From IMG/VR virus record IMGVR_UViG_3300032240_001148, positions 1 through 25,249 of that record: a stretch of DNA of 25,249 nt. One strand, given 5' to 3'. Positions 1,889 through 25,163 of the stretch are shown here, in pieces. A program made the translations under genes and the position numbers. The number at the start of each line of letters is the position of its first letter. The stretch's first letter is position 1. The notes beneath the pieces were generated by a model that was not told the DNA's origin, did not search any database, and was given only the letters and a program-made list of their open reading frames with translations. Source of the stretch: a virus.

Positions 1889-3946
1889 ATGGCAGACCGT
1901 TTAAGAGTTACAGAACTTGATTTTGATACAATCAAGAACAACTTAAAATCATTCCTGAACCAACAATCTCAGTTTACAGACTACGATTTTGAAGGTTCTG
2001 GTCTTAACATCCTATTGGATATTTTGGCCTATAATACTCATTATAATGCGTATTACCTTAACATGGTTGCCAATGAATCTTTTATGGACACCGCATTACT
2101 CCGTGATTCTGTTGTTTCACATGCAAAGTCTCTTGGATATACTCCATATTCTACAAAAGCACCTGTTGCACAAATCAATTTCACAGTCGTAACAACAAAC
2201 AATACACCTGCAACATTGACATTGCCTGCTGGGTATTCTTTCTTGTCTAATCAAATTGATGGCAAATCATATAACTTTGTTGTTTTGGAAGACACAACTG
2301 TAACCAAATCAAATACAAATTTCTATTTTGAGAATTTGAATATACACGAAGGTCAATTAGTTACCTACACATTCGTTCACAATCAATCAACGAATCCAAA
2401 ACAAGTATTCACATTAAAAGATGCCAACATTGACACCACAACTATTAAAGTTCAAGTGTCTCCATCAACTTCAAATACTTCATTAACATCATACTCTAAA
2501 GTTACTGATATTTTAGATGTAACATATGATTCTAATGTTTTCTATTTGCAAGAAAGTAAAAACGGAAAATTCCAAATTTATTTTGGAAACGATGTTGTTG
2601 GTAAAAAATTAGCAGATGGTTCTGTTGTTTATGTAACTTACTTACTCAACAACGCAACTGCCGCAAACAAAGCCAATAACTTTGTTGCCGCAGCATCTAC
2701 TACAGATTCTATAGGTAATGTATTAACACGATTTATTATTACTCCAGTTTCTGCTGCTGCGGGCGGTTCTGAACGTGAGAGTGTGGACTCAATCAAGTTT
2801 GGTTCTGCTGCACAGTTCTCAACACAAAATCGTTTGATTACATTTAAAGATTATGAATCATATATTAAGAAGAATTATCCTTCTGTTGATTCATTGACTG
2901 TTTGGGGTGGTGAAGAAGAAGTTCCACCTGCATATGGCAAAGTTTATATTGCTTTGAAACCTAAAAAAGATTATTACATTTCTGAAGCAGAAAAAACACG
3001 CATTATTAATGAAATCATTAAACCAAAGTCTATTGTAGCGGTTGATACAATCATTCGTGACCCTGAGTATCTTTATCTTTTAGTTGAAAATTATGTTGAA
3101 TATGATAAAAATAAAACAACTCAAAGTACAGATGCAATTAAAACAGGTATTAAAAATGCGGTTCTAACTTACGCACAATCAAATTTAAATAAATTTGCGG
3201 CAACATTTGTTCTTTCTAAAATGCAAGACGGTATTGATGCGGTAGATTATAATGCGATTCGTGGTTCTGAAACTACATTAAAATTACAAAAAAGATTTGA
3301 ACCAGATTTAACAAAATCATCAACATATAATATTAATTTTAATGCAGAGTTACATAGAGGTACTATTACCAATAAAATGACTTCAACTGAGTTTGATGTT
3401 TATGACACTACTGGTAAAAGAAGAACAGTTTTATTGGAAGAAGTTGAACAATCATACACTGGCATTTCTTCTATTCAAGTTACTAATAGCGGAACAGGAT
3501 ATCTTGTTGCACCAACAGTAACAATTACTGGTGATGGTTCTGGTGCTTCAGCCGTGGCAACAATTATAAATGGAAAAGTTGATAGTATTACTATAGTAAA
3601 TCGTGGTACAGGATATTCAAGAGCTTTGGTTTCAATATCTGGTGCAACAGGATATGGTGCTACTGCATCTGCAATTTTAGATTCTAAAATAGGAACATTG
3701 AGAACAGTTTACTATGACGAATTTGTACAAAGACAAACTGTTAATGCTACTGCGGGTACAATTTATTATGACACAGGTTTAATTACATTAAAAGATTTAA
3801 GAGTATTATCTGTTACTTCTAGTGATAATATGATTCGTTTAACTATTGAATCTGAAAGAGGTATTTTAAATTCTGCTAAAAATACAATCATCACAATTGA
3901 TGAAACAGATCCAAATTCTATTTCAACCGAATTAACTGTATATTAA
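1889..3946 (+). CDS. 6: Baseplate wedge protein gp6
   Basis: This 685-aa protein is of the gp6/baseplate J-like family. In T4, gp6 dimers join the wedges into the inner baseplate ring, and the T4 protein is of similar length. The N-terminus is diagnostic for T4-like gp6: LDFDTIKNNLKSFLNQQ, then GSGLNILLDILAYNTHYNAY and a MDTALLRDSVVSHAKSLGY-type segment within the first 95 residues. The middle (about 300-460) contains the ring-forming region ending in FVLSKMQDGIDAVDYNAIRG. A glycine/tyrosine beta module is embedded at about 527-600. The C-terminus runs straight into gp7, whose ATG overlaps this stop codon by one base (TAATG), indicating translational coupling. The added module is what makes the C-terminal part unusual. 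Confidence 0.94.
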   Translation: MADRLRVTELDFDTIKNNLKSFLNQQSQFTDYDFEGSGLNILLDILAYNTHYNAYYLNMVANESFMDTALLRDSVVSHAKSLGYTPYSTKAPVAQINFTVVTTNNTPATLTLPAGYSFLSNQIDGKSYNFVVLEDTTVTKSNTNFYFENLNIHEGQLVTYTFVHNQSTNPKQVFTLKDANIDTTTIKVQVSPSTSNTSLTSYSKVTDILDVTYDSNVFYLQESKNGKFQIYFGNDVVGKKLADGSVVYVTYLLNNATAANKANNFVAAASTTDSIGNVLTRFIITPVSAAAGGSERESVDSIKFGSAAQFSTQNRLITFKDYESYIKKNYPSVDSLTVWGGEEEVPPAYGKVYIALKPKKDYYISEAEKTRIINEIIKPKSIVAVDTIIRDPEYLYLLVENYVEYDKNKTTQSTDAIKTGIKNAVLTYAQSNLNKFAATFVLSKMQDGIDAVDYNAIRGSETTLKLQKRFEPDLTKSSTYNINFNAELHRGTITNKMTSTEFDVYDTTGKRRTVLLEEVEQSYTGISSIQVTNSGTGYLVAPTVTITGDGSGASAVATIINGKVDSITIVNRGTGYSRALVSISGATGYGATASAILDSKIGTLRTVYYDEFVQRQTVNATAGTIYYDTGLITLKDLRVLSVTSSDNMIRLTIESERGILNSAKNTIITIDETDPNSISTELTVY
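3467..3688 (+). repeat. Glycine/tyrosine beta module inside gp6
   Basis: Codons 527-600 of gp6 encode a twice-repeated pattern: V-T-N-S-G-T-G-Y, then PTVTITGDGSGASA, then G-K-V-D-S-I-T-I-V-N-R-G-T-G-Y, then a second GATGYGATASA. The same pattern recurs in the gp7-like protein, gp8 and the DUF4815-type protein in this window. It is predicted to be all-beta and to sit on the protein surface. Boundaries are approximate. Confidence 0.7.
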
Positions 3947-18370: not shown

Positions 18371-18546
18371 TGACATTATTAGAAAAAATTAAAACAATTT
18401 ATACAGAATTAAATATTGAAGATTTTGGTCCATTTGGAACCATAATGATTCAAAACAATAGTGATGGCAAAGGCGACTACATAGCAAAGTGGGAACATCC
18501 AACACTTGCAAGACCAACCAAAGAACAATTAGAGGCTATTGAATGA
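18370..18546 (+). CDS. Small fibre accessory protein, XkdW-like ending (58 aa)
   Basis: This short reading frame begins TLLEKIKTIYTELNIEDFG and ends GDYIAKWEHPTLARPTKEQL followed by EAIE. The Y-I-x-x-W ... P-T-x-x-x-L ending is the signature of small proteins encoded beside phage tail-fibre genes (XkdW-type and related putative fibre-assembly factors). It overlaps the C1q-like gene by 1 nt (TAATG) and the following adhesin by 4 nt (ATGA), so all three are translationally coupled. It is acidic and small enough for a chaperone or a tip-bound subunit; which of these is not shown by the sequence. Confidence 0.75.
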   Translation: MTLLEKIKTIYTELNIEDFGPFGTIMIQNNSDGKGDYIAKWEHPTLARPTKEQLEAIE

Positions 18547-19070
18547 CTACAATCGTAGACGGCACAACCGGTATAACATTCCCTAGTACCATTTCAGGTG
18601 TAAGTGCAACTCAGCAATATTCAGGTAGAGTGTTACAGGTGTTGCAAGTAGTAGACTCAACTGCTACATCATTTACCTCAACTACTTTTGCAACTATGGG
18701 TGGAATGTCAGCAACAATAACACCAACAAGCACATCAAGTAAAATTTTAATAATACTCAATTTACAGGGTCAAAATAGAACTGCTGGTTTGGGTGAGGAT
18801 TTAGGAATACTAAGAAATGGTTCAAATTGTTATACACAAAACCACTATAGTTTGATTGCTGCAGCAGTTGCAAATAATCCTGATAATAATGGACAAGGTG
18901 GTATGGCTCCAGTGATTTATTTGGATTCTCCAGCTTCTTCTTCAGCGGTAACTTATACATTTCAAATGAGACATAGAACAGGTAATAGTGGAACTTTTTC
19001 TGTAAATTATGCCTTGGGTGCAACAGGTGCAGTTTATTCTACCATTACTCTTATGGAGATTGCAGCATGA
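18543..19070 (+). CDS. Beta-sandwich adhesin / fibre tip (unit 1)
   Basis: This 175-aa protein has an N-terminal tag TTIVDGTTGITFPSTISG of a kind common on phage fibre tips, then SGRVLQVLQVVDSTATSFTS, ITPTSTSSKILIILNLQ and a final YSTITLMEIAA. This is a familiar all-beta tip domain of marine-phage fibre genes. The N-terminal tag is the likely attachment part and the rest the surface-binding part; both roles are inferred. It starts inside the stop of the 58-aa gene (ATGA), with AGAGG upstream as ribosome-binding site. Its own stop overlaps the 86-aa gene by 4 nt. By order and accessory type it is the counterpart of the 398-aa gene at 20619. Confidence 0.72.
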   Translation: MTTIVDGTTGITFPSTISGVSATQQYSGRVLQVLQVVDSTATSFTSTTFATMGGMSATITPTSTSSKILIILNLQGQNRTAGLGEDLGILRNGSNCYTQNHYSLIAAAVANNPDNNGQGGMAPVIYLDSPASSSAVTYTFQMRHRTGNSGTFSVNYALGATGAVYSTITLMEIAA

Positions 19071-19327
19071 TTAATCACGATTCTATTTTTGCATTATATC
19101 CTACAGCTGTTACTATTCGTGGTGATGTTGCCTATGATGCCAATGAAAACATTGTTGAATACAATGAAGCCACAGTTCAGGCATATACAGATTCCATTGC
19201 ATACAAAGGTTTTCGTGCCAAAGAATACCCCTCCATTGCAGACCAACTAGATACTTTATATCATGGTGGTCTTGATGCATGGAAAGCACAGATTAAAACA
19301 GTTAAAGACAAATATCCAAAGGCATAA
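19067..19327 (+). CDS. Small fibre accessory protein, EYPSI-DQLD type (86 aa, unit 1)
   Basis: This 86-aa protein contains EYPSIADQLDTLYHGG (53-68) and ends KTVKDKYPKA, a signature I recognise from small genes next to phage tail-fibre genes. Its in-window paralogue at 21817 shares the start MIN, an LYPT element near residue 12, EYPSIGDQLD and K-x-KYPK. The middle differs. The motif-bearing half looks helical. It overlaps the adhesin before it by 4 nt (ATGA, with GGAGA upstream) and ends 3 nt before the next adhesin. A role in folding, capping or attaching the cognate fibre is inferred. Confidence 0.75.
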   Translation: MINHDSIFALYPTAVTIRGDVAYDANENIVEYNEATVQAYTDSIAYKGFRAKEYPSIADQLDTLYHGGLDAWKAQIKTVKDKYPKA

Positions 19328-19330
19328 CAA

Positions 19331-20449
19331 ATGAGTGTATCATACGGTGGCGATAGTATAACATTTGGCGATGGTTCAATAGTATCGTCTGGATCGCAAG
19401 GTTTTAAAAATAAAATCATCAATGGTCACATGATGATTGACCAACGGAATGCTGGTGCAAGCGTTACACCTACTAGTAATGTTTTTGGTCCTGATAGATG
19501 GACTCCACAATTAGCGCAATCTAGTAAGTTTAGTTATCGTCAAATGGAGTCTGCAAATACTTCTGCTTCCAATTACGAATCAAGTTCTGCACCAACAGGT
19601 TTTACAAATTCTTTAAAGATAACATCATCATCTGCTTACACACCTGTAACGGGTGATTATATGTTGATTAGACAACATATTGAGGGGTATAATGTTGCGG
19701 ATTTAGATTGGGGTTTGGCAACTGCTAAAACAGTCACCGTATCATTTTGGGTCAAATCAAGTTTAACAGGGTCTCATAGTTTTTCTGTTTATAATTTTGA
19801 TGGTTCTCGTTCTTATCCTGTTTTATACACAATCAATACTGCAAATACTTGGGAATATAAAACAATTGTTATTCCGGGTGATACATCGGGAACATGGAAA
19901 AAAGATAGTAATATAGGAATATCTATAGCATTTAGTATTGGTTCTGGTGCTACATATTCAGGACCTTCTGGTGCATGGGCATCTGCTTGGTATCCAGCGG
20001 CAACAGGTGCTGTACCTTTAATTGGTACATCAAGCGCTACATTGTATATTACTGGAGTTCAATTCGAAAAAGGCACGGCTGCATCAACTTTTGAATTCCG
20101 TTCATATCAAAAAGAATTGATGTTATGCCAAAGATATTATCAATTATATACAGCCACATCTGTGGAATGGATTTATAATGAAGATGCTACGACAAACCAC
20201 AAGTGGTGGCAATGTTATTTAACTGGTGCAACGATGAGAACCACTCCAAGTGCGACATTTATTGGTTCTTGGACTGGAGGCACTTCTGGTGGTTTAACGG
20301 GAACAATAGCTTCAATGACTGCAACTGATATTTCTGTGAACAGGTTTATTGTTAGAGTTGGTATGTCAGCTGATGGTGGAACATCACATTTAATGTATCA
20401 TACAGATGGTTGGCAAACTAAACAAATTGGATTTACTTCGGAGTATTAA
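19331..20449 (+). CDS. FKN-IING-type adhesin with jelly-roll-like core (unit 1)
   Basis: This 372-aa protein has a short N-terminus, then [19 protein letters not shown] (24-42), the hallmark opening of a large phage fibre-tip family. A carbohydrate-binding-like beta core follows (about 43-260: [56 protein letters not shown]). The region after LCQRYYQ (about 267 on) is a separate C-terminal part with no similarity to the paralogue at 22157, so the receptor-facing end appears to be the variable part. Sugar binding is inferred from the fold-like pattern only. Upstream AAAGG lies in the end of the 86-aa gene. The stop codon overlaps the 53-aa gene by 1 nt (TAATG). Confidence 0.8.
19831..19867 (+). 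repeat. Direct repeat copy shared with the paralogous adhesin (copy 1)
   Basis: These 37 bases match 22609-22645 at 35 positions, and the last 21 are identical. They encode the [11 protein letters not shown] / [11 protein letters not shown] core strand of the two FKN-IING-type adhesins, a possible crossover point. Confidence 0.75.
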
Positions 20450-20610
20450 TGTATAAATTAACATTACCTATTAATGGTGTTTCTAGAGTTGTTGAAAGAC
20501 TATCTGATAATACTTTTATTCCTTTTGACCCCGCTAACTCAGATTACCAAACTTATCTAAAATGGCTTGCTGAAGGTAATACTCCAGAACCTGCTGACCA
20601 AGGCGAATAA
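20449..20610 (+). CDS. 53-aa fibre accessory protein (unit 1)
   Basis: This 53-aa protein runs [19 protein letters not shown], then [20 protein letters not shown] and [14 protein letters not shown]. The D-N-T-F-I-P-F ... Y-x-x-Y-L-x-W-x-x-x-G-N-T-P-E-P pattern is widespread in short proteins beside phage tail-fibre genes. Its paralogue at 23158 has the same length and the same C-terminal two thirds, and follows the paralogous adhesin. That argues for a cognate adhesin-accessory pair. It is coupled to the adhesin by TAATG with CGGAG upstream. Its last codons overlap the late promoter-like octamer at 20606. The biochemical role is unknown. Confidence 0.8.
20560..20598 (+). repeat. 39-bp near-identical repeat at cassette end (copy 1)
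   Basis: This matches 23275-23313 at 37 of 39 positions. Both copies encode the [13 protein letters not shown] end of the 53-aa proteins and lie just upstream of a late promoter-like octamer and a new adhesin gene, so recombination here would exchange whole downstream cassettes. Confidence 0.85.
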
Positions 20611-20613
20611 ATA
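20606..20613 (+). promoter_or_regulatory. Late promoter-like octamer AATAAATA overlapping a stop codon
   Basis: The octamer includes the TAA stop of the 53-aa gene (20608-20610) and ends 5 nt before the ATG at 20619. T4 spacing would place the start of transcription on that ATG. The next bases (AAAAC) are also shared with the elements at 8733 and 24726. Confidence 0.5.
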
Positions 20614-20618
20614 AAACT

Positions 20619-21815
20619 ATGAGTTACATCGGAACAAATTCTACCATTTACGACCCAACAAGAACTATTGCTTCTCCAAGAGATGCAGATAGATTCTCTG
20701 GTGACGGTTCTACTACAGTATTCACATTAACTAGGTCAGTTCAAAAAGAAGTTGACCTTGAAGTTTTTGTTGAGAATGTACAACAAGAACCAATTACTGC
20801 TTTCTCCGTATCTGGTACAACACTAACATTCACTGGTGCACCTCCATCAGGTACTAATAACATCTATGTTGTTTATCGCAACTTTGATTCTGGCGCACAA
20901 GTATATGTACCCGATGGTTCTATTACCTATGCAAAGTTAGCAAACAACATAAGAATTTTTACAACTGATAACTTAACACCAAACGGCAATAACACAGTCT
21001 TTACTTTGACTGAACCACCTGCTGATGCAAATACAGTTATGGTTACAGTTGATGGTGTGGTGCAAAGAGCACCAGTACACTATACGACTACAGGTAATAC
21101 AATTACTTTTACTTCTAGCCCACCCGCCGGTGCCAATGTCCATGTAAGACATTTGGGTTTTAGAACTACAAGTACAATTACAACATTAGCAGCAAATAGT
21201 AGTATTAGTCAACCAACATTGTTATCACCAACAATTTCAACACCATCAATTACAGGTAATATTTCAGTAACAGGAACATTTTCTAGTAATATTCTTCCTG
21301 CTGCAAATGCAACTTATGATTTAGGTTCATCGTCTTCAAGATGGAACAACATTTACGGAAATTTGGTAGGTAATTTTTCTTTTCCTACTACATCAGTTTT
21401 AGCTAATACTGTTAGTTCTGGTCAACAATCATTGTCATCAAGTGCTTCAACATATACTGATTTGAATGTGAGTTTAAGTCTTGATCCAGGTACATGGGCA
21501 GTATTTTATGCCGCTTCAATTGAAAACCAAAATGTATCTGGTTCTAGTTATCCTGTTCAAGGTGTTATTCATTATTTGTCATTAAGAACAAGTGGTGGTA
21601 CTGTTATACAATCATCTCAGTTGGTATATGCCAACTATGAAAAAACTTATGACTGGAATACTTCAACATTTATGAGAATAATGACTGTTGCATCAACCAC
21701 TACATATAAACTATCACATGTTTGGCAAGGTAATTCTGGTTCACCATCTACATCTTCACTTTATTGCAGGCCTGATAATCACCCAACACAACTAATTGCG
21801 ATTAAATTATATTGA
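20619..21815 (+). CDS. Modular tail fibre adhesin (unit 2, promoter-proximal)
   Basis: This 398-aa protein starts MSYIG, like the 140-aa protein at 24741, and contains two tandem copies of an N-terminal module. Copy 1 is FSGDGSTTVFTLTRSV to PSGTNNIYVVYRNFD (about 26-90). Copy 2 is TPNGNNTVFTLTEPP to PAGANVHVRHLGF (about 120-171). Next come repeat-like Thr/Ser stretches and the fibre motif NILPAANATYDLGSSSSRWN (about 224-243). The C-terminal beta-sandwich head (about 270-398) ends HPTQLIAIKLY. The modular plan (anchor, spacer, head) fits a receptor-binding fibre; the receptor is unknown. The 109-aa accessory gene follows after one base. No Shine-Dalgarno sequence is seen, only the late promoter-like A-rich stretch. 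Confidence 0.78.
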   Translation: MSYIGTNSTIYDPTRTIASPRDADRFSGDGSTTVFTLTRSVQKEVDLEVFVENVQQEPITAFSVSGTTLTFTGAPPSGTNNIYVVYRNFDSGAQVYVPDGSITYAKLANNIRIFTTDNLTPNGNNTVFTLTEPPADANTVMVTVDGVVQRAPVHYTTTGNTITFTSSPPAGANVHVRHLGFRTTSTITTLAANSSISQPTLLSPTISTPSITGNISVTGTFSSNILPAANATYDLGSSSSRWNNIYGNLVGNFSFPTTSVLANTVSSGQQSLSSSASTYTDLNVSLSLDPGTWAVFYAASIENQNVSGSSYPVQGVIHYLSLRTSGGTVIQSSQLVYANYEKTYDWNTSTFMRIMTVASTTTYKLSHVWQGNSGSPSTSSLYCRPDNHPTQLIAIKLY

Positions 21816-21816
21816 T

Positions 21817-22146
21817 ATGATTAATAAATACGCACAAGCACTTAGAAATTTATATCCAACTGTACATGGTTACAGTATGGATTTTACTTTGCCTACAATA
21901 CAAGAATTTTTAAATTCTATTACTGGTTGGCCAGAAGGACAATCTTTACCAACACTTTCAGAAGTACAATCAGAAGTTGATTCGATTGAACTAAAGATAC
22001 AAAACGCTCAATATAAAGAGAATCGTTTGGTTGAATACCCATCAATTGGTGACCAATTAGATGCATTATGGAAAGGCGGCGCAGCTGCTGAAGCGATGCT
22101 TGCAAAAATACAAGCAGTTAAGTCTAAGTATCCTAAGCCAGAATAA
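21817..22146 (+). CDS. Small fibre accessory protein, EYPSI-DQLD type (109 aa, unit 2)
   Basis: The ATG at 21817 is chosen because it follows the previous stop by one base and gives the N-terminus MINKYAQALRNLYPT, which parallels the paralogue at 19067. An in-frame TTG further upstream is unnecessary. The protein has EYPSIGDQLDALWKGG (73-88) and ends QAVKSKYPKPE. Compared with the 86-aa copy it has about 20 extra residues in the middle, including a helical segment SEVQSEVDSIELKIQNAQ that resembles a coiled coil. It follows the 398-aa adhesin, as the 86-aa copy follows the 175-aa adhesin. The function (assembly factor or tip subunit) is inferred from context. Confidence 0.77.
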   Translation: MINKYAQALRNLYPTVHGYSMDFTLPTIQEFLNSITGWPEGQSLPTLSEVQSEVDSIELKIQNAQYKENRLVEYPSIGDQLDALWKGGAAAEAMLAKIQAVKSKYPKPE

Positions 22147-22156
22147 GAGAATATAA

Positions 22157-23155
22157 ATGCCAATTCAAACAGCAGCAGATAGTATTAGTAATAGTGCGGG
22201 TTCACCGTACGGATTTAAGAACCGTATTATAAACGGTGCAATAACTATCGACCAAAGACTTAATGGTTCTGGAAATACATTAGTAACTGCAACAGAGACT
22301 TTTGTTGTGGATAGATTTGTTGCATATAAAGATGGTGGAGTTATTACTTCTGGCCAATCAACGATTGCACCTGCTGGATTTACAAATTCAATATCTTGGT
22401 CAGTTGGAACAGGATATTCTGCAACATCTGGTCAATATACTTTTTTAAAATATCACATCGAAGGTTATAATGTTGGAGATTTAGGATTTGGAACTTCTGA
22501 TGCAAAAACTGTTACTTTATCTTTTTGGGTAAGAGCATCAGTAACAGGTACATATAGTGGTACTTTAGGTAATGTTTCTTTAAATAGAAGTTATCCTTGG
22601 ACATATACAATCAATTCTGCAAACACTTGGGAATATAAAACAATTACTGTACCAGGTGATACTACAGGAACTTGGGCAAAAGATAACACAACAGGATTGA
22701 GAATATATTGGGATTTAGGTACTGGTAGCGGTAGCAGAGGCACAGCAGGTTCTTGGCAAGCGACAACATTAGTTGGTGCAACTGGAACAACTTCCATTTC
22801 TGCAACAACAGGTGCCACATTTTATATTACTGGTATTCAATTGGAAAAAGGTTCACAAGCCACAGCATTTGATTATCGTCCATATAGTACAGAATTACAA
22901 TTGTGCAAACGATACTATCGCATAGCAAAATGGAGATGGCAAGGTCAAAGTGCAGGATTGGGTCAAGGTCAAGGATGGACTTGGGTGTTTGACCCAGAGA
23001 TGAGAACTACCCCAAGCATTACAACTTCTAACTTTACAAATGGTTCTTCTTTTAATTTAGCTGGGCCACAAGGTGGTGATACTATGGGAATGTATGCACA
23101 AGGTGATGGAAACGGAACTGTTATTCTTTATACGGCTGCAAATGCAGAATTCTAA
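22157..23155 (+). CDS. FKN-IING-type adhesin with jelly-roll-like core (unit 2)
   Basis: This 332-aa protein is the paralogue of the 372-aa protein at 19331. It opens GFKNRIINGAITIDQRLNG (19-37). The shared core continues with [47 protein letters not shown] and YITGIQLEKGSQATAFDY, up to LQLCKRYYR. After that the two proteins diverge. This one has a Gly/Gln/Trp-rich part (KWRWQGQSAGLGQGQGWTW) and ends NGTVILYTAANAEF. The conserved core with variable end suggests a scaffold carrying exchangeable receptor-contact segments. The start ATG overlaps an ATATAAATG string, and AAGAGA upstream is a weak ribosome-binding site. The 53-aa accessory gene follows after 2 nt. Confidence 0.8.
   Translation: MPIQTAADSISNSAGSPYGFKNRIINGAITIDQRLNGSGNTLVTATETFVVDRFVAYKDGGVITSGQSTIAPAGFTNSISWSVGTGYSATSGQYTFLKYHIEGYNVGDLGFGTSDAKTVTLSFWVRASVTGTYSGTLGNVSLNRSYPWTYTINSANTWEYKTITVPGDTTGTWAKDNTTGLRIYWDLGTGSGSRGTAGSWQATTLVGATGTTSISATTGATFYITGIQLEKGSQATAFDYRPYSTELQLCKRYYRIAKWRWQGQSAGLGQGQGWTWVFDPEMRTTPSITTSNFTNGSSFNLAGPQGGDTMGMYAQGDGNGTVILYTAANAEF
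22609..22645 (+). repeat. Direct repeat copy shared with the paralogous adhesin (copy 2)
   Basis: This is the partner of 19831-19867, with 35 of 37 bases the same. It encodes the [11 protein letters not shown] strand of this adhesin. The surrounding DNA has diverged much more, so this patch is either a recent conversion tract or under tight coding constraint. Confidence 0.75.
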
Positions 23156-23157
23156 TT

Positions 23158-23319
23158 ATGTATAAAAAAATTAAAAATATCGACACTGGTTTAGATGCTA
23201 ATCACATCAAACGATTATCTGACAACACATTTATTCCTTTTGTTGAAGACAACACCGATTACCAAGAATACCTAAAGTGGCTTGCTGAAGGCAATACTCC
23301 AGAACCTGCTGACGAATAG
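23158..23319 (+). CDS. 53-aa fibre accessory protein (unit 2)
   Basis: This 53-aa protein runs MYKKIKNIDTGLDANHIKRL, then [19 protein letters not shown] and [14 protein letters not shown]. From about residue 19 it aligns without gaps to the 53-aa protein at 20449. The N-terminal 18 residues differ, so specificity for the partner adhesin may lie there. It sits 2 nt after its adhesin and ends 1 nt before a late promoter-like octamer. The family is common beside tail-fibre genes, but its function is not known to me. Confidence 0.8.
   Translation: MYKKIKNIDTGLDANHIKRLSDNTFIPFVEDNTDYQEYLKWLAEGNTPEPADE
23275..23313 (+). repeat. 39-bp near-identical repeat at cassette end (copy 2)
   Basis: This is the partner of 20560-20598, with two mismatches, both third-codon changes. 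It again lies just before a late promoter-like octamer and a new adhesin gene. Confidence 0.85.
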
Positions 23320-23320
23320 A

Positions 23321-23328
23321 GATAAATA
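23321..23328 (+). promoter_or_regulatory. Late promoter-like octamer GATAAATA before the 289-aa adhesin
   Basis: The octamer lies 1 nt after the 53-aa gene's stop, with 7 nt between it and the ATG at 23336, the same spacing as at 8733 and 24726. No Shine-Dalgarno sequence is visible between it and the ATG. Confidence 0.55.
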
Positions 23329-23335
23329 AAAGAAT

Positions 23336-24205
23336 ATGCCATTAAGTAAATTATCTTCAAACAGTTTCAACACACAAGCCAATCTTACCTCATTATCAAT
23401 AGGTACTGCGGCTAATCGTGCGCTTGGTGGAAGTGGAAACACTACAACGATTGCAACTGAAAATCCTGGTCTTGTGACCATTGCTAAACCATATGATGGT
23501 GGTGCAACAACAATCAGATTTACTTCTAATCCATCAGGATATGGTAATGATTTTTATCATTCAATTGCACATGGTGCAGGTTCTGGATTTAATATCTATG
23601 CTGGTGGTTATCAAAGTCATATAGATAACCAAACTTATACATCAAATAATTCGAATACGATGATGTATTTTGGTGGTAGTACTTCCGATTTTAATGTTCA
23701 ATTATATACTGGTACACAACAAGCCGCAGCAAATAATACATACATTGGTAATAAATCTTATGTTAGACAGTTGCTTGCATTTTCTATTGGTTCATTTGGT
23801 AATATTAAAACTCCTGCTTGTGAGTATACCACTTTAGGAACATCATCATGGGCAACAACTCTTGCTGGTGACTCTGGTGGACAAGTTCCATTTCAAGCAT
23901 TTCAATGTCGTGCGTTTTGTTACTTTAATGGTATAACTAATGCTGTTGTTAGAGGTGCTAACATTAGTTCAATAACTGACCAAGGTACAGGATTGTATCG
24001 TGCAAATTTTAGTAGTAATATGCCTGATGCAAATTACACAGTTGTTACCGCTGGACAACATAATGGTTATGGTGGTGCTGCATTAGGTACAGGACCAGGA
24101 TCAGCTGCTGGCGACAATACAACTTCATATGTTTCACTTGAGTGTAGAAATTACACAAATAGTAATAATGAACCAAATGCACTTTACTTTGCGGTGTTTA
24201 GATAA
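23336..24205 (+). CDS. Tail fibre adhesin with a common fibre C-terminal domain (unit 3)
   Basis: This 289-aa protein has an N-terminal part (PLSKLSSNSFNTQANLTSLS) of fibre-tip type, then a Gly/Asn/Tyr-rich middle (about 60-190). The C-terminal domain starts at CRAFCYFNGITNAVVRGANI, continues ISSITDQGTGLYRANFSSNM and PDANYTVVTAG, and ends NALYFAVFR. This C-terminal pattern is a familiar ending of phage tail-fibre proteins, probably a trimeric beta head. Several Cys residues (e.g. in PACEYT and CRAFCYF) are more than in neighbouring adhesins. Two accessory genes, rather than one, follow it. It lies directly behind a late promoter-like octamer and opens the third cassette. Confidence 0.77.
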   Translation: MPLSKLSSNSFNTQANLTSLSIGTAANRALGGSGNTTTIATENPGLVTIAKPYDGGATTIRFTSNPSGYGNDFYHSIAHGAGSGFNIYAGGYQSHIDNQTYTSNNSNTMMYFGGSTSDFNVQLYTGTQQAAANNTYIGNKSYVRQLLAFSIGSFGNIKTPACEYTTLGTSSWATTLAGDSGGQVPFQAFQCRAFCYFNGITNAVVRGANISSITDQGTGLYRANFSSNMPDANYTVVTAGQHNGYGGAALGTGPGSAAGDNTTSYVSLECRNYTNSNNEPNALYFAVFR

Positions 24206-24206
24206 T

Positions 24207-24479
24207 ATGACAAAAAAAATACTATATCCAAATGATGATGGTGGAATTTCTATCGTCACTCCAAATCCAGATTGTGGCATACCTTATGACCAAATTGCAC
24301 TTAAAGATGTGCCTGCTGGAAAACCATTTTTAATTGTTGATGCAGATGATGTTCCAACTGACAGAACATTCCGTGAAGCATGGGATGCCGACTTTAGTAA
24401 TCCTCATGGTCATGCCCTTGGACATTTTGCTTGGGTTGAAACACAACCTAAAGAAGAAGAAAGTAAGGCCGGCAAATGA
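24207..24479 (+). CDS. Small fibre accessory protein, IALKDVPAG type (90 aa)
   Basis: The ATG at 24207 is chosen because it follows the adhesin stop by one base and gives TKKILYPNDDGGISIVTPNP, the normal start of this family; an earlier in-frame start would overlap the adhesin. The protein continues PYDQIALKDVPAGKPFLIVD and PTDRTFREAWDADFSN, then an acidic tail. The G-G-(I/V)-S-(I/V) ... K-D-V-P-A-G ... P-x-D-R-T-F-R-x-A-W pattern is common in small proteins after tail-fibre genes. In many phages this part is, to my recollection, fused to a segment like the next gene. Its ATGA overlap with that gene supports joint action. Function is inferred from context. Confidence 0.78.
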   Translation: MTKKILYPNDDGGISIVTPNPDCGIPYDQIALKDVPAGKPFLIVDADDVPTDRTFREAWDADFSNPHGHALGHFAWVETQPKEEESKAGK

Positions 24480-24730
24480 TTATTATTGATTTAGAAAAAG
24501 CAAAACCTATTGCTAAAGATATTCTTAGAAAAGAAAGAGCGCCAGTTCTTGCATCTTTGGATGTTCAATTTCAAAGAGCATTGGAAACAAATGCTAATAC
24601 ATCTGCGATTGTTGCAAAGAAACAAGAATTAAGAGATATCACTAATCACGATTCTATTGTTAATGCCGAAACGGCAGCAGATTTAAAAACTGCCTTGGAT
24701 ACATTAGTAGCTCAAATTAAAGCAGAATAA
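24476..24730 (+). CDS. Small fibre accessory protein, LDVQF-RA type (84 aa)
   Basis: This 84-aa, probably all-helical protein reads IIIDLEKAKPIAKDILRKER, then APVLASLDVQFQRALETNAN, VAKKQELRDITNHDSIVNAE and DLKTALDTLVAQIKAE. The element P-x-L-x-x-L-D-V-Q-F-x-R-A followed by A-x-K-x-x-L-R-D is widely found in short proteins coded after phage tail fibres, often as the C-terminal half of a longer protein whose first half resembles the gene at 24207. It overlaps that gene by 4 nt (ATGA), with TAAGG as ribosome-binding site. Its stop codon is shared with the late promoter-like octamer at 24726. Confidence 0.77.
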   Translation: MIIIDLEKAKPIAKDILRKERAPVLASLDVQFQRALETNANTSAIVAKKQELRDITNHDSIVNAETAADLKTALDTLVAQIKAE

Positions 24731-24733
24731 ATA
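24726..24733 (+). promoter_or_regulatory. Late promoter-like octamer AATAAATA overlapping a stop codon
   Basis: The octamer contains the TAA stop of the 84-aa gene and has 7 nt between its end and the ATG at 24741. The 20 bases 24727-24746 are identical to 8734-8753 before and into gp8. Confidence 0.55.
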
Positions 24734-24740
24734 AAACACT

Positions 24741-25163
24741 ATGTCATATATTGGAAACCCTATTGTCAATGGTAGCTTTCGCTCAGAGTTGTTCTCTGGT
24801 GATGGTACTACGACTGCATTTAACTTAGCATACGGAACAGGTAACGAAGCATCTGTTATCGTTACTGTGTCTGGTGTTAAACAAGCAACAAACACATACG
24901 CACTAAGTAATGGTCAGTTAGTGTTCACAGAAGCACCACCTACAGGCACTCAAAACATTGAGATTGTCTATATGGGTGATAGAGTGCAAGTGAACCCATA
25001 TTTGAGTGCAGATACATATGGTATCGTTAGAATCAATTCCAATGTGCTTAGTGAAAACGTCTCCATCACAACCGGGTATAACGCCAGCTCTGCGGGACCT
25101 CTAACGATTGCTTCTGGTAAGACAGTAACAATTGCAAATTCGAGCACTTGGACAATTTTTTAA
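24741..25163 (+). CDS. Short modular fibre protein (140 aa)
   Basis: This 140-aa protein starts MSYIG and carries one copy of the module seen twice in the 398-aa adhesin: FSGDGTTTAFNLAYG to PPTGTQNIEIVYMGD (about 18-80). A short link (NPYLSADTYGIVRINSNVL) follows, then the end module SITTGYNASSAGPLTI, GKTVTIANSSTWTIF (about 108-140), which resembles the 71-aa protein at 17635. It is thus an anchor module fused to an end module without a receptor head, and could be a fibre base or a minimal fibre. It lies behind a late promoter-like element with no Shine-Dalgarno sequence. No accessory gene follows within the 22 nt before the next ATG. Confidence 0.7.
   Translation: MSYIGNPIVNGSFRSELFSGDGTTTAFNLAYGTGNEASVIVTVSGVKQATNTYALSNGQLVFTEAPPTGTQNIEIVYMGDRVQVNPYLSADTYGIVRINSNVLSENVSITTGYNASSAGPLTIASGKTVTIANSSTWTIF

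Follow-up and report, generated by a model that had tools for sequence, protein, structure and literature searches.

What does it mean when two neighbouring blocks of genes in a phage carry similar genes in the same order? The question is raised by the virus fragment IMGVR_UViG_3300032240_001148, a 25,249-bp stretch of DNA that was analysed as a whole and will be called the window. A gene for a 1999-aa protein is followed, up to the end of the window, by an array of small tail-fibre-type genes, in which the initial annotation saw a tandemly duplicated unit of four genes: a beta-sandwich adhesin, a DQLD protein, an FKN adhesin and an EGN protein of 53 aa. We found that the array consists of fixed slots taking pairs of genes, that the FKN genes are mosaics whose joints cluster, and that the tip of an FKN protein is transferred together with part of its partner gene. 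It is quite likely, in our judgement, that the locus is a receptor-binding cassette array in the tail region of a T4-like marine myovirus, that it has been diversified by homologous recombination and that the block repeat is a by-product.

The first 10 kb of the window encode a tail lysozyme/spike, a PAAR protein and several baseplate wedge proteins. The phage isolates nearest to the wedge protein at 1889-3946 are Methylophilales phage Melnitz and Pelagibacter phage HTVC008M, and among 50,697 phage records there was no near DNA match to the window beyond 56 bp (S-CAM9). Because of this baseplate gene content, an identity to isolates of only 38-41% and the lack of a near DNA match, the window derives from a distant T4-like myovirus of marine type. 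The relatives discussed here are metagenome contigs (given as L-numbers); of the 457 and 428 related stretches, 80 each were kept.

All eight open reading frames of the two blocks are present where the initial annotation placed them, and three of the four positions are paralogous in the same order, with blastp matches within the window that are far beyond chance (40% identity over about 320 aa, E 4e-71, for g19331/g22157; 78% over 37 aa, E 1.5e-20, for g20449/g23158; 48% over 60 aa, E 6e-12, for g19067/g21817; genes are named by their first position). The first position had been paired by order and type alone, and g18543 and g20619 have no homology in blastp; a profile comparison of the g18543 family with the C-terminal domain of g20619 likewise gave no homology (probability 0.7%). 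Alignment of the blocks at the DNA level is patchy and gave no continuous duplication. The DNA repeats are direct, 70-79% identical and spaced 2.72-2.78 kb apart, and they cover chiefly the FKN core and the EGN 3' end. Additionally, for each window copy, genes of many other phages outscore its window partner. Among the blastp hits in the fetched loci, which were not deduplicated, the mutual rank of the window copies was 229th-242nd for FKN, 105th for EGN and 114th/184th for DQLD. The initial annotation had named a closer kinship of the copies with genes of unrelated phages as the sign of independent acquisition; the copies are indeed closer to genes of other phages, but these nearest genes include slot-mates of related phages.

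Six relatives are syntenic with the array (L047, L083, L059, L008, L005 and, in part, L007), and L187 reaches only slot A. The common order is a BS18543-family beta-sandwich (BS) adhesin with DQLD, FKN_A with EGN, a g20619-like shaft, FKN_B with EGN, FKN_C with EGN and, in several relatives, BS with DQLD again; L008 is without the first BS and DQLD pair. Two types of cassette thus occupy the fixed slots, either an FKN adhesin and a 53-aa EGN protein or a beta-sandwich adhesin and a DQLD protein. When copy number was compared over the related genomes, as the initial annotation had suggested, the parts gained and lost were these two-gene cassettes and not whole four-gene blocks. Slot B holds FKN and EGN in five relatives and, in L007, a different 213-aa tip that is paired with a PF16778 tail-assembly chaperone (7e-18). 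In the window, FKN_B and its EGN are missing, and slot B is filled by a tip fused to g20619 and a DQLD gene. Five syntenic relatives have the g20619 shaft at 73-78% identity (residues 1-272), and the alignment breaks after RWNNIY, where the window runs into an unrelated domain whereas the relatives end in the same short C-terminus. No relatives of this C-terminal domain were found in phage records or PHROGs. The FKN cassette of slot B was most likely replaced, via a joint inside g20619, by the fused tip and its DQLD gene. Because the relatives keep another cassette between slots A and C, the second four-gene block would be a by-product of this replacement, and the window, which is alone among the seven, would represent the derived state. 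Replacement of a cassette rather than duplication is also in line with the closer kinship of the window genes to those of other phages.

Free-standing genes for GIY-YIG type endonucleases lie at several different slot boundaries in the relatives, and none was seen in the window. Those of L083 (972-1574 and 9201-9470) and L007 (3422-4315) match an NCBIfam group I intron endonuclease (best 1.6e-26); similar endonuclease-like open reading frames in L059, L008, L005, L187 and L047 were judged by eye from their N-termini, the NCBIfam match being for L083 and L007 only. Such endonucleases might drive local exchange of cassettes.

The pairing of tip and partner genes was counted after removal of near-copies. 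FKN is followed by EGN in 171 of 196 testable FKN genes, and 172 of 177 EGN genes have FKN before them; BS is followed by DQLD in 110/148 cases, and DQLD has BS before it in 103/142. FKN and DQLD were the main routes by which these loci had been collected, and EGN was therefore used as the anchor of an independent scan, in which FKN stood directly upstream in all cases (75/75). The gene preceding FKN is of mixed identity. The pairing also holds in isolates: in Methylophilales phage MEP402 a fibre gene is directly followed by DQLD, FKN and EGN, and Synechococcus phage RB11-B carries the cassette as well. The small gene directly behind a tip gene is specific to the type of tip, and the two form a cassette.

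The initial annotation had described adhesins with a common core and different C-termini, and FKN_A and FKN_C are built in this way. An FKN gene is composed of three modules: a slot-specific N-terminal tag, a jelly-roll core and an orphan C-terminal tip. The tags of 14-24 aa in slots A, B and C are 64-100% identical within a slot versus 7-42% between slots, with medians of 84% and 21% and no overlap. The cores (median identity 50% within slots, 44% between) and the tips (32% and 29%) carry almost no slot signal. Tips that are 92% identical are found in different slots of different phages (L083 slot A and L005 slot B; L083 slot B and L047 slot C), and tag and tip can agree around a core that differs (L225/L226, L129/L089, L347/L257).

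In both cross-slot pairs, DNA identity rises from about 55-60% to 90-100% near the end of the core and drops at the end of EGN. Of 17 pairs, 15 have their joint no more than 35 nt from the ELxLCxRY motif, and the joints occur in both directions, so that the core is the same and the tip different or the reverse. A uniform null for this clustering gives 7e-16, a value that is indicative only, as the pairs share members and a joint can be placed only where similarity changes. A second cluster of joints lies inside EGN, and the part that moves with the tip is the EGN 5' half. In three pairs with near-identical tips (0.91-0.95) and diverged cores (0.45-0.64) the EGN bodies are near-identical (0.98-1.0), and for L083 slot A and L005 slot B the identity is 92% in the tip, 52% in the core and 86% in EGN. 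EGN ends in residues that keep to the slot (PADQGE in A, L/IPADE in B, PE(P/L)ADE in C), slot A of L059 being the exception.

The core of FKN_C was predicted by AlphaFold2 to be a beta-sandwich, with pLDDT mostly >85 over residues about 41-230. In the PDB, Foldseek matched the FKN core to CBM4, CBM11, CBM22, a Pa193 tail-fibre chain and CBA120 TSP4 (best 2.9e-6, probability 1.00). The core and the three CBM families share the jelly-roll fold at about 9-17% identity, but no Pfam CBM family was matched significantly, and 1 of 62 members came near one (E 0.084). The BS family profile matches the C-terminal part of the 658-residue orf22 in PDB 9efk (1.2e-35). The array is most likely made of receptor-binding tail-tip cassettes, and its content agrees with the earlier proposal that one phage carries several tips of the tail-tip type.

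The EGN proteins, with their strongly conserved 3' half and short variable 5' half, correspond to the N-terminal half of PF16778 (Phage_tail_APC) proteins in L122 (1162-1548, 1e-15) and L080 (3821-4183, 3e-15). PF16778 stands behind EGN in these two contigs and is the slot-B partner in L007, whereas the window EGN proteins are without the domain. With these fusions, L122 and L080 offer a natural connection between the tiny EGN proteins and the longer chaperones of tail assembly, and the most likely role of EGN is that of a cognate assembly chaperone (or cap) for the tip. Comparison of EGN with the PDB gave only chance-level matches. DQLD, which is predicted to be all-helical, has no usable Pfam match and neither a sequence nor a fold match in the PDB. 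By its position, it should serve BS tips as EGN serves FKN tips. An assignment of the DQLD protein g21817 as CpoB was rejected, as the NCBIfam match (2.4e-5) is far below the cut-off and likely reflects helical-repeat similarity.

In the mechanism that we propose, each fixed slot takes a cassette encoding a tip protein and, immediately downstream, its small partner. The slot-specific tag may serve as an address by which the tip is docked to the tail. Behind the tag comes the jelly-roll core of carbohydrate-binding type, and the hypervariable C-terminal tip would make the specific contact. The conserved end of the core and the conserved 3' half of EGN may act as the arms for recombination, and the unit swapped between phages and between slots would be the tip together with its tip-specific EGN 5' half. 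We suggest only tentatively that such shuffling of address tag, sugar-binding core and tip could be general, and that built-in arms, one of them inside the chaperone gene, could keep fibre and chaperone matched.

That the four-gene unit was duplicated in tandem in this lineage and then diverged is favoured by the paralogues in equal order at three of the four positions and by the direct repeats at the spacing seen here. This reading was rejected on the homology of all positions and on the copies being nearest to each other, and we regard it as very improbable: position 1 is non-homologous, the contents of slots A, B and C in the relatives contradict a block duplication, the copies are closer to genes of other phages, and the N-terminal tags mark A and C as old, separate slots. 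An older duplication may instead have involved an FKN and EGN cassette before the relatives split, with mostly vertical divergence, fast tips and little exchange thereafter. Slots A and C are common to several relatives, and in a tree that includes the N-termini (110 rows) g22157 is placed with the slot-C copies (SH-aLRT 95-97) and g19331 with slot-A copies, in a group of 89. When the tree was built from cores only, support fell, which fits an exchange among modules; a sister clade of the two window cores was not rejected by the AU test (p 0.20), and therefore the FKN gene itself may be the product of an old duplication. Such an event is compatible with later exchange. Divergence with little exchange is nevertheless improbable, as cores and tips cross slots, some of them near-identical in DNA, and fitting the slot labels to the tree takes 5-6 changes versus a minimum of 2.

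The variety of the tips might be made by a dedicated system, such as a diversity-generating retroelement or DNA inversion, for which hypervariable C-termini behind a conserved core would be expected. This is exceedingly unlikely: the tips differ in length and in their whole sequence with sharp joints at the DNA level, the copies are direct, inverted repeats are short and imperfect, and neither a reverse transcriptase nor a recombinase appeared in the family hits of the genes in the window, a genome fragment in which no dedicated search was made. EGN could also be a structural part of the tip, for example a small distal adhesin contacting the receptor in a role like that of T2 or S16 gp38. Obligate pairing and co-transfer with the tip would be expected here too. 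We consider this unlikely, since EGN has only about 53 aa with its conserved and variable halves and the Phage_tail_APC fusions point to assembly.

Several observations weigh against recombination of receptor-binding cassettes with cognate chaperones. Outside recent swaps, the covariation of tip and EGN is weak (partial rank correlation 0.11; 9/500 permutations were as high), and the window EGN proteins match no Pfam family, including PF16778 and DUF4376. Slot 1 has two N-terminal alleles and no single constant tag. Donors of the window's own tips were not found in viral contigs, and the swaps are evident in the relatives and not in the window. Chimaeric assembly of metagenome contigs could imitate a mosaic, yet joints of this kind are repeated across many contigs, which come from different samples.

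Table 1. Genes and modules of the cassette array in the window.
Feature	Position	Strand	Evidence or remark
BS18543-family beta-sandwich adhesin, slot 1 tip	18543..19070	+	PHROG 6942 tail fibre, 6e-14
DQLD protein, slot 1 partner, 86 aa	19067..19327	+	80% identical to L083 slot-1 copy, 74% to L047 slot-1 copy
FKN_A N-terminal tag, slot A, 24 aa	19331..19402	+	slot-specific tag comparison
FKN_A carbohydrate-binding-like jelly-roll core	19403..20137	+	family alignment; fold via homologous g22157 core; ends ELMLCQRY (20114-20137)
FKN_A variable C-terminal tip, 103 aa, orphan	20138..20449	+	no relatives in viral contigs or PHROGs
EGN partner, slot A, 53 aa	20449..20610	+	upstream FKN; PADQGE end as in other slot-A EGNs
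g20619 conserved N-terminal/shaft part	20619..21338	+	up to RWNNIY (21339); Pfam Phage_T7_tail N-domain 3.5e-6
Slot B tip, C-terminal domain fused to g20619 shaft	21339..21815	+	differs from all five aligned relatives
DQLD protein, slot B partner, 109 aa	21817..22146	+	closest relative in L362 (60%), not g19067
FKN_C N-terminal tag, slot C, 19 aa (MPIQTAADSISNS...)	22157..22213	+	kept in slot C of six phages
FKN_C jelly-roll core	22214..22915	+	AlphaFold2 and PDB fold matches; ends ELQLCKRY (22892-22915)
FKN_C variable C-terminal tip, 79 aa, orphan	22916..23155	+	no relatives in viral contigs or PHROGs
EGN partner, slot C, 53 aa	23158..23319	+	72% identical to L005 slot-C EGN; PEPADE end as in other slot-C EGNs

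The start of g21817 is the ATG at 21817, and a TTG lies upstream at 21796. Behind slot C, g23336 (23336-24205), which overlaps the next open reading frame (24129-24479), matches the tail-fibre PHROG 11355 in its C-terminal part and is a further tip of another family. The 140-aa protein of g24741 (24741-25163) has a repeated N-terminal domain in common with g20619 (41% over 86 aa), and its copy in L047 is 91% identical; it probably serves the array as a further conserved shaft or adaptor. A/T-rich leaders (about AATAAATAAAA) are found directly 5' of three array genes (20605-20616, 23321-23332 and 24725-24737). They could be look-alikes of the T4-type late promoter core or mere A/T-rich spacers, and promoter-like sites in the array occur at the level of shuffled sequence (35 against 38).

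Parts of this organization are already known, namely the swapping of tips between conserved arms, N-terminal anchors with exchangeable C-termini and fibre-chaperone modules shared among marine phages. For the distal tail-fibre locus of T-even phages (gp37/gp38), Tetart et al. reportedly described in 1998 how adhesin specificity is swapped when conserved motifs recombine. That locus and the array are alike in that conserved motifs serve as arms and the swapped part is the receptor tip plus the following gene. Unlike the T-even locus, the array places several slots in parallel in one genome, its core is a jelly-roll and one arm lies within the small partner gene, and no sequence link between array proteins and gp38 was found. 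The Alteromonas phages V22 and A5 carry modules of a tail fibre and its cognate DUF4376 chaperone (PMC10579305, PMC7289586). These phages are also marine, and the fibre gene is followed by a cognate chaperone gene, as we infer for the array. Sharing of the module across unrelated phages is a further common feature. The DUF4376 chaperones of V22 and A5 have 195 and 239 aa and theirs is a single module, whereas the array is multi-slot with partners of 53 aa that have no Pfam match. The branched tailspike complex of Ackermannviridae has N-terminal anchors and exchangeable C-termini (PMC11414711). Both systems have several receptor-binding proteins per virion with conserved N-termini and variable C-termini, but the N-terminal parts in Ackermannviridae are named folded domains (XD, TD) and the array tags have 14-24 aa. 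A multi-slot array that has such short slot tags and carries a homology arm within the partner gene was not found described in open-access full texts, most subscription papers being outside this scope.

These results demonstrate that the replacement of cassettes can produce an apparent duplication of a gene block. Host range in marine phages is difficult to deduce from sequence, and with fixed slot tags and fixed joints it would become possible to recognise, compare and count tips across metagenomes. They would also mark the tiny EGN protein family as a likely tip-specific chaperone.

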